The notes under the pieces: generated by a model
What the model was told of the DNA's origin: nothing
Database searches by the model: none
What the model saw: only the letters and a program-made list of their open reading frames with translations
Position numbers and translations under genes: made by a program
Shown here: piece after piece, positions 43,685-49,680 of the stretch
How the letters are laid out: each line of letters opens with the position of its first letter
Position numbering within the stretch: position 1 is the stretch's first letter
Assembly: GCA_019235885.1 (NCBI GenBank)
Contig: JAFAKB010000085.1
Location: 1-49,680 of the forward strand
Direction of reading: 5' to 3'
DNA from: Candidatus Eremiobacterota bacterium
GTDB lineage: Bacteria > Vulcanimicrobiota > Vulcanimicrobiia > Vulcanimicrobiales > Vulcanimicrobiaceae
DNA: 49,680 nucleotides

Positions 43685-46444
43685 GTGCTCACCGCCCCCG
43701 CCGCCCGCCGCATCGCGCAGCTGCTGCGCGCTCCGCAGCCGCTCGCCGACGCGCTGGCCGACGCGGCCGCCGAAATGCGCGGGCTGCTCGGCGCGCGCGG
43801 CGTCGCGCTGGTGGTGCGCCGCGAGGGCCGCTCGCACCGCGGGCAATCGGGAACGATCGCCGATCACGTCACCGAGATCCCGCTCGCGGACGCCGACGTC
43901 GAGGGGACGCTGATGGTCTCCGGCGCCGCGCAGGTATCCGAGGAGCTCGCGCTGATCGTCACGCTGGCGCTCTCCGCGCGCTTTCTCGCCGAGTCGGCGC
44001 AGACCGACGGCCTCACCGGCGTCGCGAACCGGCGCACGTTCGACCTGCGCTTCGAGGAAGAATGGCTGCGCGCGAAGCGCGAAGGAACCTCGCTCGCGGT
44101 CGCGATCCTCGACATCGACTACTTCAAAGTCTACAACGACCGCCACGGCCACCTCGCCGGCGACGACGCGCTGCGCCGCGTCGCGCACGCCGCCTCGGCG
44201 AACCTGCAGCGCGCCGGCGACCGCTTCGCGCGCTACGGCGGCGAAGAGTTCGCCGCGATCCTGCCCGCCACGACGCTCGCCGGCGGGATCGCCGCCGCCG
44301 AGCGCATCCGCAACGCCGTCACCGCGCTGGCGATCCCGCATCCGGTCGGCAAAGCCGGCCGGCTCACCGTCAGCATCGGCGTCGCCGCCGCGGAACCGGC
44401 GCGCGGCGGCAGCGCGCACGAATTGCTCGCGGCCGCCGACCGCGAGCTGTACCGCGCGAAAGCGGAAGGCCGCGACCGCGTCGCCGCCGACGGCTACGCG
44501 CTCGAGCACGCGCGCGACGAAGGCCTCCCGCAACCGTTCTCCGCGCTGATCGGCCGCGACGAAGATCTCGCCACGGTGCGCCGCGCGATCGACGCGCATC
44601 GCGTGGTGACGATCGCGGGCGACGCCGGTGTCGGCAAGACGCGCCTCGCGCTGGCCGTCGCGCACGAAGCCGCGCCGCGCTTCGCGCGCGTCCGCTTCGT
44701 CGACGCGGTCGGCGCGGTCACGCGCGAGGAGCTGCTCGCGCGCCTCGCCGCCGCGCTCGGCGTTCCCGATGCGGACCCGGCGCTCGGCACGATCGCCGGC
44801 GCGCTGACCGAACCGGCGCTGCTCGTCCTCGACGGCTGCGAACGCATCGCCGGCGCCTGCCGCGAGGTCGTCGATGCGCTCGCCGAAACGCCGCTGCGCT
44901 GGCTGATCACCAGCCGCACGGCGCTGGACGCGCGCGACGAGCGCGTCGTGCATCTCAGCCCGCTCGACGAGCGCGCGGCCGGTACGCTCTTCGCCGACCG
45001 CGCGCACGCGCTGGCCGCGCTCGACGAGCGGGAGACGCGCGCGTTCGCCGCCGTCGCGGTCTTCCGCGGCAGCTTCACCGCCGGCGACGCCGCCGCGGTG
45101 ATCGCGGACGAAGCGGTCGACGCGCGCCGGGCCGACGCGCTGCTGCGCGCCTTCGCCGCGCGCTCGCTGCTCGACGCGGCCTCGCACGGCGGCATCACGC
45201 GCTGGCGCATGATCGACCCCGTCCGCGAGGCGCTGGCTGCGATCCCGCGCTTCGAACGGCACGCGCCGCGCGCGCACGCCGCGCACCTGCGCTGGTGCCG
45301 CGCGCGCCTCGACGCGATCGCCGCGCGAACCGGCACCGGAACGAATCACGCCGCGCTGGTCGAGTCCGAGACGGTGATCGACGAGGTGCGCGCCGCGCTC
45401 GACCGCGCGCTGCAGGACGAGAGCCTCGTGCGCGACGGCGCGGAGCTGTGCTACGTCGCGGTGCGCCAGTGGTTCGCCGTCCGCCACCCGCACGAAGGCC
45501 GCCTGCGCTGCGAAGCGTTCATCGGCCGCAGCGAACGGCTCGCGCCGGTGCACCGCGCGCGCCTGCACGCCGCCGCCGCGCGCCTGGCCTTCGTCGAAGG
45601 CGACCTCGTGGCGACGGAGACGCACGCGCGCGCCGCCGACGCGCTGCTCGGCGAGGACGACGCGATCGAACGCTCGACGGTGCTGAACTTCCTGGGCATC
45701 GTCGCGAAGTTCCGCGGCGACTACGGCGAAGCCGAGCGCCTCTTCCGCCTCGGCTGCGAGCTCAACGCGCGGATCGGCAACAAGCGCGGCGAGGCGATCG
45801 CGATCGGCGCGCTCGGCACGGTCGTGTTCGACTTCCGCCTCGACCACGACGAAGCGGTGCGCCGCTTCCGAGAAGCAGCCGCGACGTTTCGCGCGATCCA
45901 CGACGACTTGAACGCGCTGGTGATGCTCGGCAATACGGCGGAGTCGCTCGCCGCGCGCGGCGACGTCGCCGAAGCCGCGCGCATCGTCACCGCCGCGGTC
46001 GAGGAGAGCCGCGCGTTCGGCAACCGGGCCACGTCGGCGCAGCTCTTGTGCGTGAGCGCGCTGGTGGCCGATTTGCAGGATGATCGCGCCGGCGCGGCGC
46101 GCGCGATGCGCGAAGTCGTCGCGCTGCTCGCGGCCGGCTCACCGGGCGCGGTCATGCTGATGGCGTTCGACTTCGCGGCCCGCATCGTCGCGCACAGCGG
46201 CGGCGACGACGTGCTCGCCGCGACGCTGGTCGGCGCGGCGGAACGCCACGCCGCCGCGCAAGCGACGCCGCTGCTCCCGATCCAGCGCTTCTGGCGCGAC
46301 CCGATCGTCGCACAGCTTCGCGAACGCCTCGGCGCCCGCTACGACGACGCCGCGGCGCGCGCGCGCGCGACGAGTGAAGCCGAGCTGCTCGCCGCGCTCG
46401 ACGACTACTTGCAGACGCTCGAACGCACCGGCGCGAGCGGCTGA
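43685..46444 (+). CDS. GGDEF - STAND ATPase - TPR fusion protein
   Basis: The 919-aa protein begins with a GAF-like segment (about 1-105), then a diguanylate cyclase domain (about 107-270) with RYGGEEF near 183 and an I-site RAGD five residues earlier. After a linker comes an AP-ATPase-like NTPase (about 285-530: VTIAGDAGVGKTRLALAVA, LLVLDGCERIAG, RWLITSR). TPR-like repeats follow (about 590-860). This is the layout of LuxR/AfsR-type regulators with the DNA-binding output replaced by a cyclase. GTG start 1 base after the preceding stop. Confidence 0.85.
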   Translation: MLTAPAARRIAQLLRAPQPLADALADAAAEMRGLLGARGVALVVRREGRSHRGQSGTIADHVTEIPLADADVEGTLMVSGAAQVSEELALIVTLALSARFLAESAQTDGLTGVANRRTFDLRFEEEWLRAKREGTSLAVAILDIDYFKVYNDRHGHLAGDDALRRVAHAASANLQRAGDRFARYGGEEFAAILPATTLAGGIAAAERIRNAVTALAIPHPVGKAGRLTVSIGVAAAEPARGGSAHELLAAADRELYRAKAEGRDRVAADGYALEHARDEGLPQPFSALIGRDEDLATVRRAIDAHRVVTIAGDAGVGKTRLALAVAHEAAPRFARVRFVDAVGAVTREELLARLAAALGVPDADPALGTIAGALTEPALLVLDGCERIAGACREVVDALAETPLRWLITSRTALDARDERVVHLSPLDERAAGTLFADRAHALAALDERETRAFAAVAVFRGSFTAGDAAAVIADEAVDARRADALLRAFAARSLLDAASHGGITRWRMIDPVREALAAIPRFERHAPRAHAAHLRWCRARLDAIAARTGTGTNHAALVESETVIDEVRAALDRALQDESLVRDGAELCYVAVRQWFAVRHPHEGRLRCEAFIGRSERLAPVHRARLHAAAARLAFVEGDLVATETHARAADALLGEDDAIERSTVLNFLGIVAKFRGDYGEAERLFRLGCELNARIGNKRGEAIAIGALGTVVFDFRLDHDEAVRRFREAAATFRAIHDDLNALVMLGNTAESLAARGDVAEAARIVTAAVEESRAFGNRATSAQLLCVSALVADLQDDRAGAARAMREVVALLAAGSPGAVMLMAFDFAARIVAHSGGDDVLAATLVGAAERHAAAQATPLLPIQRFWRDPIVAQLRERLGARYDDAAARARATSEAELLAALDDYLQTLERTGASG

Positions 46445-47261: not shown

Positions 47262-48455
47262 CTACGCGGCGTCGCGCCAGATTGGGATGACCGAGCGCAC
47301 TTCGCCGCGCTCCCGCAACGCGCCGGCCGCAGCTTCCAGGCGATCGAGCGGGACCGCCGCCGTCGTCACGACGGTGCTGTCCGCGAACCGCACCAGCACC
47401 GGCGCGCGCAGCGGTCGGGCGACGAGATCGGCGCCGTCGTGCGCCGGAACACACTCGCGCGCGCCGAGCGCCGCGAGCACGTCGGCGACGACGGCCGACG
47501 CCGTCGCGTCGCCGCCCGCGCCGAAGCCCGAAAACACGAGCGGCCCGCAGCCGCGCCCCAGCACGCGCACGACGTTCTCCGCGCCGCGCGGCCGCGCGAA
47601 CGGATGATCGTCCGGCACGAACGCCGGCGTCACGCCCGCTTCGATCGCATCGCCCGCGCGCCGCGCCACCGCGACCAGCTTCAGCCGCAAGCCGCGCTCC
47701 GCGCCGGCGCGCACGTCCTCGCGCGAGATCCCGCCGATCCCGCGCCGCGCGAGCACCGCAGAAACCGACGGCCGCCGAAACGCGAGCCCGGCGAGAATCG
47801 CGAGCTTGTGCGCCGCATCGTGCCCATCGATGTCGCTGCGCGGATCGTGCTCGGCGAACCCGAGCCGCTGCGCTTCGGCGAGCGCTTCCGCGTAGTCCGC
47901 ACCGCTCTCCATTGCGTCGAGGACGAAGTTGGTCGTCCCGTTCAGCACGCCGCCGATCTCGAGCACGTCTTCGTCGGCGAGCGCACCGGCGAGCGCGCGC
48001 ACGATCGGAATCGCGCCGCCGACCGCGCCTTCGTAGCGCAGCGAGGCGCCCGTGCGCGCCGCGAACGCCGCCAGCCACGGCCCTTCGGTCGCGATGAGAT
48101 CTTTGTTCGCCGTCACGACGTCCTTGCCGCGCGCGATCGCGCGCAGCACGAGCTCGCGCGCCAGCCCCAGCCCGCCGATGCAATCGACCACGACGCGCAC
48201 CTGCGGATCGTCGACCACCTCGAACGGATCGCCGCCGAACTCGCTCCACGCGACGTCGCGCGGCTTGCGCGGATCGCGCACGGCGATCGCTTCGATCAGC
48301 CCCGGATGCGAGGCGATCAACCGCCGCGCGACGCCCGATCCGACGGTGCCGCATCCGAGCAGTCCGACGCGGCCGAGCGCGCGCGTCCTCGTCGCTGCGG
48401 TCACCGGAGACGGCATCGCATCGGACGAGCAGAGAACGCGCGGCAGGACTTGCAC
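47262..48455 (-). CDS. hom: Homoserine dehydrogenase
   Basis: The enzyme reduces aspartate semialdehyde to homoserine, the branch point to threonine and methionine. The NAD(P) fold shows VGLLGCGTVGSGVARRL. The family signature is ALAGALADEDVLEIGGVLNGTTNFVLDAM, with VVTANKDLIA and EAQRLGFAEHDPRSDIDGHDAAHKLAILAGLAF. At 397 aa it has a shortened ACT-like C-terminus. The start is GTG 48455 because a perfect GGAGG lies 5 bases upstream; the ATG at 48467 would overlap that ribosome site. An attenuator lies upstream. Confidence 0.93.
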   Translation of the reverse strand: MQVLPRVLCSSDAMPSPVTAATRTRALGRVGLLGCGTVGSGVARRLIASHPGLIEAIAVRDPRKPRDVAWSEFGGDPFEVVDDPQVRVVVDCIGGLGLARELVLRAIARGKDVVTANKDLIATEGPWLAAFAARTGASLRYEGAVGGAIPIVRALAGALADEDVLEIGGVLNGTTNFVLDAMESGADYAEALAEAQRLGFAEHDPRSDIDGHDAAHKLAILAGLAFRRPSVSAVLARRGIGGISREDVRAGAERGLRLKLVAVARRAGDAIEAGVTPAFVPDDHPFARPRGAENVVRVLGRGCGPLVFSGFGAGGDATASAVVADVLAALGARECVPAHDGADLVARPLRAPVLVRFADSTVVTTAAVPLDRLEAAAGALRERGEVRSVIPIWRDAA

Positions 48456-48501
48456 GGGAACCTCCATGTCGTTGAATCGCAAACGAAGTGTCAAGGGAAT
48501 G

Positions 48502-48530
48502 AAAAAGGCCCTCGCCGTTCGGCGGGGGCC
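48502..48530 (-). terminator. Attenuator terminator upstream of hom
   Basis: In the minus-strand RNA, GGCCCCCGCC (48530-48521) pairs with GGCGAGGGCC (48516-48507) with one mismatch, followed by UUUUU (48506-48502). The upstream leader segment CGGCGAGGGC (48590-48581) is identical to the 3' arm, so it can take the 5' arm and prevent the terminator. Confidence 0.85.
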
Positions 48531-48556
48531 AGTCTTGCGATCGGTGCGTCTGCGCG

Positions 48557-48640
48557 TTACGCCGACGTGGATCGAGACCTGCCCTCGCCGAGGGAAGTCG
48601 TCGTCATCGTCGTCGTGGTCGTCACGCAGAGCCCGAACAT
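48557..48640 (-). CDS. thrL-like: Threonine leader peptide, 27 aa
   Basis: Starts at ATG 48640 inside the 3' end of metX and reads MFGLCVTTTTTMTTTSLGE..., with eight Thr codons in nine positions (mostly ACG). It stops 27 bases before the terminator hairpin. A stem CCCTC-GGC-GAGGG covers codons just after the Thr run. When threonyl-tRNA is scarce a stalled ribosome would free the antiterminator segment. No strong Shine-Dalgarno is seen; ribosomes finishing metX may reinitiate. Confidence 0.8.
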   Translation of the reverse strand: MFGLCVTTTTTMTTTSLGEGRSRSTSA

Positions 48641-49677
48641 TGTTCGACGACCCTATCACGGATCACCGAATCGCGCAAGAGGGCGGCCAAGCTTTCCGGG
48701 TGCGCGAGGAACCCGTCGTGACCGTGATCGCTCGGCAGATGGCGGTACGACGAGTCCCACCCCGCTTCGGCCCACCGTGCCGCGCAGCTCCACACGAACT
48801 GCGGCGAGTAGAGCTGATCGCCCTCGATGCCGACGAAGGTGAGCCGCGTTCGCCCCGCCGGCCGCTCGTGCCCGCGCAGGTCGAACAGGTCCATCGCGCG
48901 CGTCAGCACGAGATAGCTGTTGGCGTCGAAGCGCTTCACGAAGACGTCGCCTTGGTGCGCGAGATACCCCTCCACGTCGAAGCGGGCGTCGAGCGTGCGG
49001 GTCGGGTCGCCGCCGGCGCGGTCGGCGCGGTTCGCGTAGCGCCGCTCGAAGAGATCCTCGCTCTTGTACGTCAGCGTCGCGATCGCGCGCGCGAGCCGCA
49101 GCCCGTCGGCCGGCGGTTCGTCGTACCACCCACCCTTGAAGCGCGGGTCGAGCCGAATCGCCTCGCGGGCGACGCCGTTCTGCGCGATCCCCTGCGCGCG
49201 GAGGTGATCGAACGTCCCGACGACGATCGCGTGATCGACGAGCTCGTCGTGCGCGCGCGCCCACTGCAGCGCCTGCTGCCCGCCGAGCGATCCGCCGATC
49301 GCGATCGCGACGCGCTCGATCCCGAACGCCGCGCGCAGCGCGCTTCGCTGCGCCTCGACGATGTCCGCGACCGCGACGACGGGAAACCGCGGTCCCCACC
49401 GCCGCCCGTCCGGCGCAAGCGACGACGGCCCGGTCGACCCGTAACACCCGCCGAGCACGTTCACGCCGACGACGCACCACCGTTCGAGATCGAACAACCC
49501 GTCGCGCCCGACCAGCCCATCCCACCACTCGACGACCCGCGACGATCCCGTCAGCGCGTGCGCGACGAACACGACTTTCGCCCCGTCCGCCGCCGGCTCG
49601 GCCCCATACCGCGTCACCCGCTGGACGACACCGGGAACCGAAGCGCCGGAGACGAGCTCCAGCGCCCCGATCTCCAC
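48622..49677 (-). CDS. metX: Homoserine O-acetyltransferase family protein
   Basis: The 351-aa alpha/beta hydrolase activates homoserine for methionine synthesis (acetyl or succinyl donor). It has the nucleophile elbow GGSLGGQQALQW, the early VFVAHALTGSS oxyanion region, NVLGGCYGSTGPSS, and the catalytic aspartate and histidine in VGIEGDQLYSPQF and SDHGHDGFL. GTG at 49677 is 3 bases from the window edge, so a longer N-terminus cannot be excluded. Its end overlaps the leader peptide by 19 bases; hom follows in the same operon. Confidence 0.92.
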   Translation of the reverse strand: MEIGALELVSGASVPGVVQRVTRYGAEPAADGAKVVFVAHALTGSSRVVEWWDGLVGRDGLFDLERWCVVGVNVLGGCYGSTGPSSLAPDGRRWGPRFPVVAVADIVEAQRSALRAAFGIERVAIAIGGSLGGQQALQWARAHDELVDHAIVVGTFDHLRAQGIAQNGVAREAIRLDPRFKGGWYDEPPADGLRLARAIATLTYKSEDLFERRYANRADRAGGDPTRTLDARFDVEGYLAHQGDVFVKRFDANSYLVLTRAMDLFDLRGHERPAGRTRLTFVGIEGDQLYSPQFVWSCAARWAEAGWDSSYRHLPSDHGHDGFLAHPESLAALLRDSVIRDRVVEQCSGSA

Positions 49678-49680
49678 GTC

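Follow-up and report, generated by a model that had tools for sequence, protein, structure and literature searches.

A predicted leaderless threonine attenuator upstream of hom in Candidatus Eremiobacterota and its Met/Cys counterparts in related genera

The metX-hom Locus

The window (i.e., the whole stretch of 49,680 nucleotides that we analyzed) comes from a 4.5 Mb MAG (G000) of Candidatus Eremiobacterota (WPS-2), an uncultured soil bacterium. The named genomes closest to it are bins of Candidatus Eremiobacterota/WPS-2, recovered from palsa and soil. On the minus strand, metX is followed by a promoter-like pair of hexamers, a leader ORF, a hairpin with a U5 tract and, finally, hom. The features are, in this direction:

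48622..49680, minus strand: metX, homoserine O-acetyltransferase, reaching the end of the contig (NF001209, 312 bits; TIGR01392, 305 bits)
48673..48678, minus strand: predicted promoter -35 hexamer TTGCGC, inside the 3' coding end of metX (TTGnnn-17/18-TAnnnT kept across the genus loci)
48650..48655, minus strand: predicted -10 hexamer TAGGGT, after a 17 nt spacer and 9 nt upstream of the leader AUG (conserved spacing)
48557..48640, minus strand: leader peptide ORF, MFGLCVTTTTTMTTTSLGEGRSRSTSA*, 27 codons (homologous in 13/13 loci of the genus and sister genus)
48596..48622, minus strand: regulatory codons 7-15, eight Thr and one Met (ACG ACC ACG ACG ACG ATG ACG ACG ACT)
48590..48594, minus strand: 5' arm CCCTC of the predicted protector hairpin 1:2 (CCCTC-GGC-GAGGG; consensus fold of 13 sequences)
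48581..48590, minus strand: predicted antiterminator strand (region 2), CGGCGAGGGC, same as the terminator 3' side
48507..48530, minus strand: predicted intrinsic terminator hairpin (regions 3 and 4), GGCCCCCGCC-GAAC-GGCGAGGGCC, -18.0 kcal/mol by folding
48502..48506, minus strand: U5 tract, predicted termination site (from sequence)
48461..48465, minus strand: ribosome-binding site of hom, GGAGG (from sequence)
47262..48455, minus strand: hom, homoserine dehydrogenase, GTG start at 48455 (NF004976, 333 bits for a cut-off of 205)

The profile scores of metX lie below their cut-offs, just under it for NF001209 (312 vs. 331) and further for TIGR01392 (305 vs. 500). The original prediction had listed a leader with eight Thr codons out of nine, a 10-mer identical to the terminator 3' side, a terminator with its U5 tract and the GGAGG of hom, and all of these are present. 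It was also right in placing the leader start inside metX: the start precedes the end of the metX stop codon, itself within the leader ORF, by 19 nt.

Elsewhere in the genome, thrC and thrB lie directly after ilvD (L160), on another contig than that of the window, an arrangement that joins threonine with branched-chain genes. The assembly also contains a second metX fragment behind metY (L214, G000:C47:1-4500), which we compared with window positions 49119-49680. This terminal fragment of contig C47 is only 84% identical to the window metX, so that C47 is not simply the next contig; it could be a second copy or come from a co-binned relative. Further along the window, positions 43685-46444 encode a large protein in which, by eye, a GGDEF-like part is followed by an ATPase/TPR-like part.

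A Short ORF Rich in Threonine Codons

The leader is a short translatable ORF rich in codons for a product of the pathway, with eight Thr among nine regulatory codons here and a Thr-rich run in 13/13 relatives. At the background Thr frequency, the chance of finding at least eight Thr in nine codons is about 1e-9 per site, and such a run occurs only once among the 99,308 nine-codon windows of the six frames of the window. Matches for Asp, Ser and Val at the leader come from reading the Thr repeat in a shifted frame or on the opposite strand. The full combination of promoter, short ORF, terminator and antiterminator is found once in the window and in 0/80 Markov-shuffled strands. Over all the leaders of this class (Thr-class), Thr represents 29% of the residues, against a background of 5.8%, while the leaders outside the class contain 17% Met and 9% Cys.

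A Predicted Promoter Close to the Leader Start Codon

The pattern TTGnnn-17/18-TAnnnT is retained in the genus loci, including those without metX upstream. We scanned for promoters tolerating a spacer of 16-18 nt and a gap of 4-12 nt between the -10 hexamer and the AUG. In the leader loci, the spacer is 17 or 18 nt, and the gap is 6-10 nt, mostly 7, in 49/49 of them (the promoter of L008 being cut by the contig start). An RNA starting 6-8 nt past the -10 hexamer would have the AUG at its 5' end or a few bases from it, leaving no space for a ribosome-binding site. From this spacing, we infer that the hom-leader RNA starts at the leader AUG or within about 3 nt of it, that hom probably has its own promoter and that translation of the leader probably begins on a leaderless RNA. 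For comparison, Sinorhizobium has a leaderless trpL leader.

Predicted Mutually Exclusive Terminator and Antiterminator

Two further elements characteristic of attenuators were found: a predicted intrinsic terminator between the leader and hom and, starting shortly after the regulatory codons, a predicted antiterminator that excludes it. In 46/49 loci, a strong hairpin and its T tract lie 15-38 nt past the leader stop. The window hairpin carries one C.A mismatch, which is probably the reason why a generic terminator scan did not include it among its matches.

The 10-mer CGGCGAGGGC is present twice, i.e., within the leader and on the terminator 3' side. Its leader copy, region 2, lies directly 3' of the regulatory codons and is able to pair with the terminator 5' arm. 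This duplex reaches -16.4 kcal/mol in the window, a value equaled by 6/200 dinucleotide shuffles. Across the Thr class, the duplexes range from -15 to -30 kcal/mol, with at most 6/200 shuffles as good in 13/13 loci. Overall, 31/46 loci fall within a limit of 10/200 shuffles, and in the Met/Cys loci of g36, g30 and g33 the antiterminator pairing does not rise above shuffles. The leader RNA as a whole folds with a z of -3.0. In the consensus fold of 13 sequences, hairpin 1:2 is extended by bases of the Thr codons, and we observed in it a two-sided change from G-C to C-G (columns 54/77).

Taking one leader from each of 17 genera, the pairing of each leader with its own terminator arm has a mean of -17.0, against -14.4 +/- 0.6 when partners are permuted, and 0/20,000 permutations matched the natural assignment. 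Clear examples of arms that changed and still pair are GGCGAAGGGCG:CGCCCUUCGCC and CGAGGCGGC:GCCGCCUCG. The antiterminator and terminator arms co-vary, then, between genera; within the genus they hardly vary and are too conserved to yield a signal.

Proposed Mechanism of Attenuation

With high confidence, we interpret this element as a ribosome-mediated transcription attenuator that would make hom respond to charged threonyl-tRNA. The RNA would be initiated from the promoter in the metX 3' end, with its 5' end on the leader AUG or no more than a few bases off, and ribosomes loaded on this leaderless AUG would enter the Thr run as they translate. When Thr-tRNA is short, a ribosome would stall in the run and leave the leader segment GGCGAGGGC free to pair with the terminator 5' arm, allowing RNA polymerase to proceed into hom. 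When Thr is plentiful, the ribosome would move on and cover GGCGAGGGC, and the hairpin CCCUC-GGC-GAGGG may re-form behind it; the terminator would then form and transcription would stop near 48502. The sensed amino acid would be set by the codon content of the leader, the RNA switch itself being retained across the family.

We imposed a ribosome footprint (extending 18 nt upstream and 12 nt downstream from the start of the A-site codon) on the fold, in a simple equilibrium model. The predicted antiterminator probability is about 0.75-1.0 for every A-site position that precedes the last one to three Thr codons, and falls to zero once the ribosome has passed them, from the Leu-Gly-Glu-Gly codons on. 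With the ribosome at the leader stop, the antiterminator is available again in the model, because the stop codon lies 21 nt past region 2. The trp-type geometry, a sub-type on which membership of the class does not depend and in which a ribosome at the stop codon masks region 2, is thus not found here, so that timing or the 1:2 hairpin would have to bring about termination in replete cells.

Conservation in the Genus and Sister Genus

Among 99 genomes of the family, 66 contain hom at E <= 1e-40, the genomes of the relatives all being MAGs. The Thr leader element precedes hom in 11/11 genomes of the genus and in 2/2 of the sister genus g19, and these 13 loci retain the Thr leader (e.g., MTTTITTTTT, MTTTMTITTT, MMTTTIMTI), the antiterminator tail, the terminator and the promoter. 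The proposal of a threonine attenuator on hom is thereby strengthened, as both the Thr run and the stems pass the conservation check in 13/13 loci.

The upstream neighborhood is more variable. Another gene separates metX from the leader in G001, G004 and G008; the leader of G002 and G005 follows a gene other than metX. The leader element hence travels with hom. The metX-hom operon initially proposed holds only in part: metX does lie upstream here, but this adjacency is accidental, since the predicted promoter located in the metX 3' end is retained by relatives with another upstream gene. The same loci bear on another reading, in which a constitutive terminator of metX would be accompanied by a coincidental short ORF. 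A strong hairpin behind metX would indeed stop read-through RNA, on which the leader has no ribosome-binding site; however, the element is retained where metX is not upstream, and its leader codons, promoter spacing and antiterminator pairing are conserved, which makes this reading most improbable. In the broader proposal given below, the terminator would insulate hom from metX read-through, because only the leaderless RNA from the hom promoter would have its leader translated.

The antiterminator tail reads LGEGRSxSTSA in most of the 13 loci. Such a conserved peptide, together with the known ability of leader peptides to act in trans (peTrpL, PMC7298713), could suggest that the leader controls hom translation, causes nascent-peptide arrest or produces a trans-acting peptide, rather than affecting transcription termination. 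We consider this very unlikely: the tail is also the antiterminator/1:2 strand, the RNA pairing is preserved across genera whose peptides differ, and the predicted intrinsic terminator, followed by a T tract, stays clear of the hom GGAGG.

The identity of the signal leaves more latitude. Every member of the genus has Met codons, Ile codons or both alongside or within the Thr run, so that Thr may not be the sole signal, and the same switch could be multivalent, sensing Thr, Met and Ile as the set of amino acids derived from homoserine. The thr leader of E. coli likewise contains both Thr and Ile. On the other hand, Met (7%) and Ile (6%) are much rarer than Thr in Thr-class leaders, and ATG, ATT and ATC are one or two changes away from ACG and may result from drift. 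We retain multivalent sensing as a less probable variant of the Thr attenuator.

Proposed Re-Coding of the Leader and Tandem Attenuators

In about 12 other genera of the family, the same promoter-leader-terminator arrangement precedes hom with Met/Cys codons (e.g., MMCSMCCMQMH). The leaders of g22 and g6 carry Ile/Thr/Met, that of g24 is weak (MISFASRMSTCC), and one group of the family has hom-metY and no leader. On the Hom protein tree, all Thr leaders fall in one clade (support 100/100), and the distribution of the Met/Cys class is accounted for by 4 changes, where 15.8 are expected by chance. Threonine is not, then, a signal common to hom across the family, as Met/Cys codons take its place in most of the related genera, and the amino acid controlling hom would seem to have changed during evolution. 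In several Met/Cys genera, metY or metX follows hom, which fits hom as a member of a methionine unit there.

The idea that the leader type follows from the gene adjoining hom is weakened by the sister genus g19, which has a Thr leader with no metX next to hom.

We also searched further upstream with the hom-leader covariance model (its E-values are rough, and matches above about 1e-6 are weak). A second element was found in 11/11 genomes of the genus, i.e., a Met/Cys leader (e.g., MDACCMAMMAMCAAREGRCRSSSP) that precedes metY-metX, although in G003 only metX follows it. This supports the original expectation of a Thr leader that would control hom but not metX, the metY-metX genes of the genus having their own leader. 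In g7, g33, g37 and g30, the layout is the other way around, with a Thr leader (MMLFASSVTTTTTTTTTTTTGG...) before thrC-thrB (thrC being named by HMM in the relatives), then a Met/Cys leader before hom. In either layout, the homoserine branch point would hence be served by two putative attenuators, with hom under Thr in one and under Met/Cys in the other; the tandem claim rests on the genomes in which a single contig spans both elements (G001, G003, G004, G006, G008, G009 and G010).

Our broader proposal, held with middling confidence, is that a leaderless cassette has been re-coded before hom according to the clade, mostly with Met/Cys and with Thr in the clade of the window, and that paired attenuators split the homoserine branch point, either as Met/Cys on metY-metX and Thr on hom, or as Thr on thrC-thrB and Met/Cys on hom.

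Comparison with Known Attenuators

No Rfam family exceeded its threshold for the hom leader. Against Thr_leader (RF00506, gathering score 55), the hom leader reaches 14.2 bits and the thrC leaders of the relatives 26-28 bits. The hom element resembles the proteobacterial thr attenuator (RF00506) in its Thr-rich run, intrinsic terminator, competing pairing and downstream homoserine dehydrogenase gene, and differs from it in its predicted leaderless start, in the control of hom with thrC-thrB elsewhere and in its phylum.

The Cys attenuators of mycobacteria are reported as leaderless short ORFs in which codons for the sensed amino acid, Cys included, stand in runs (Canestrari 2020, PMC8764745, as cited in PMC13236596), a design that resembles the one predicted for the hom leader. 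They are described as translation attenuation (PMC13236596), and no conserved intrinsic terminator was found for them (PMC1262725), whereas one is predicted for the hom leader. Upstream of threonine and methionine operons, the same survey of Actinobacteria identified no RNA element (PMC1262725). In Streptomyces lividans, leaderless leader peptides with Met/Cys/Thr content, as predicted here, precede metNIQ (metL) and thrS (thrL) (PMC8079986); they differ in having no clear intrinsic terminator and in serving transporter and tRNA ligase genes, not hom, metYX or thrCB. The trpL of Sinorhizobium meliloti is, as proposed for the hom leader, the leader ORF of a transcription attenuator, and differs by its amino acid, Trp, and its pathway (PMC7298713). 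Our literature search, of partial coverage, retrieved no paper on Eremiobacterota leader peptides and, with limited phrasing as well, none on a methionine attenuator.

The hom element would thus belong to classical ribosome-mediated attenuation, with new traits: a leaderless start, a swappable amino acid and a tandem arrangement at the homoserine branch point. It would extend this mechanism to a phylum for which the literature searched holds no leader-peptide paper, and add Met/Cys leaders with complete terminator/antiterminator sets. The family would also provide a natural series in which the RNA switch persisted as a different amino acid came to be sensed at one enzyme, which makes it testable how easily a regulatory RNA changes its input by codon replacement alone.

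Other hom Genes and Leader-Like Elements

Several genomes of the clade carry a second, ~40%-identical hom, which has no leader upstream and is often right behind another gene (L149-L157). In the genome of the window, the ilvD-thrC-thrB, ilvB, leuA and trpE candidates showed no similar leader by the promoter-ORF pattern.

In the genera without leader, the hom genes (L014-L021, L025, L027, L029) are nearly identical at the DNA level over their first ~45 nt (CGCTTGTCGCTCACTCACCCAGCGCACGCGG), a segment for which Rfam gave no match. The version in another family is TTGCTCACTCAACCAGCACACTGG, with a possible CGCT/AGCG to TGCT/AGCA change. This start codes for SLTHPAH and might also be an RNA element.

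Finally, more leader-like ORFs with a promoter and a terminator were noticed in L231 (near 454, plus strand; MLKFARVIVGLIITTIHSDRCRLAVA) and L232 (456 and 1995, reverse strand; MYAAAMISTLQTMSTSAFWSSMSVLLS), the last of them ~2.3 kb upstream of a thrB-hom pair (G029), which suggests that such attenuators are common in the family.
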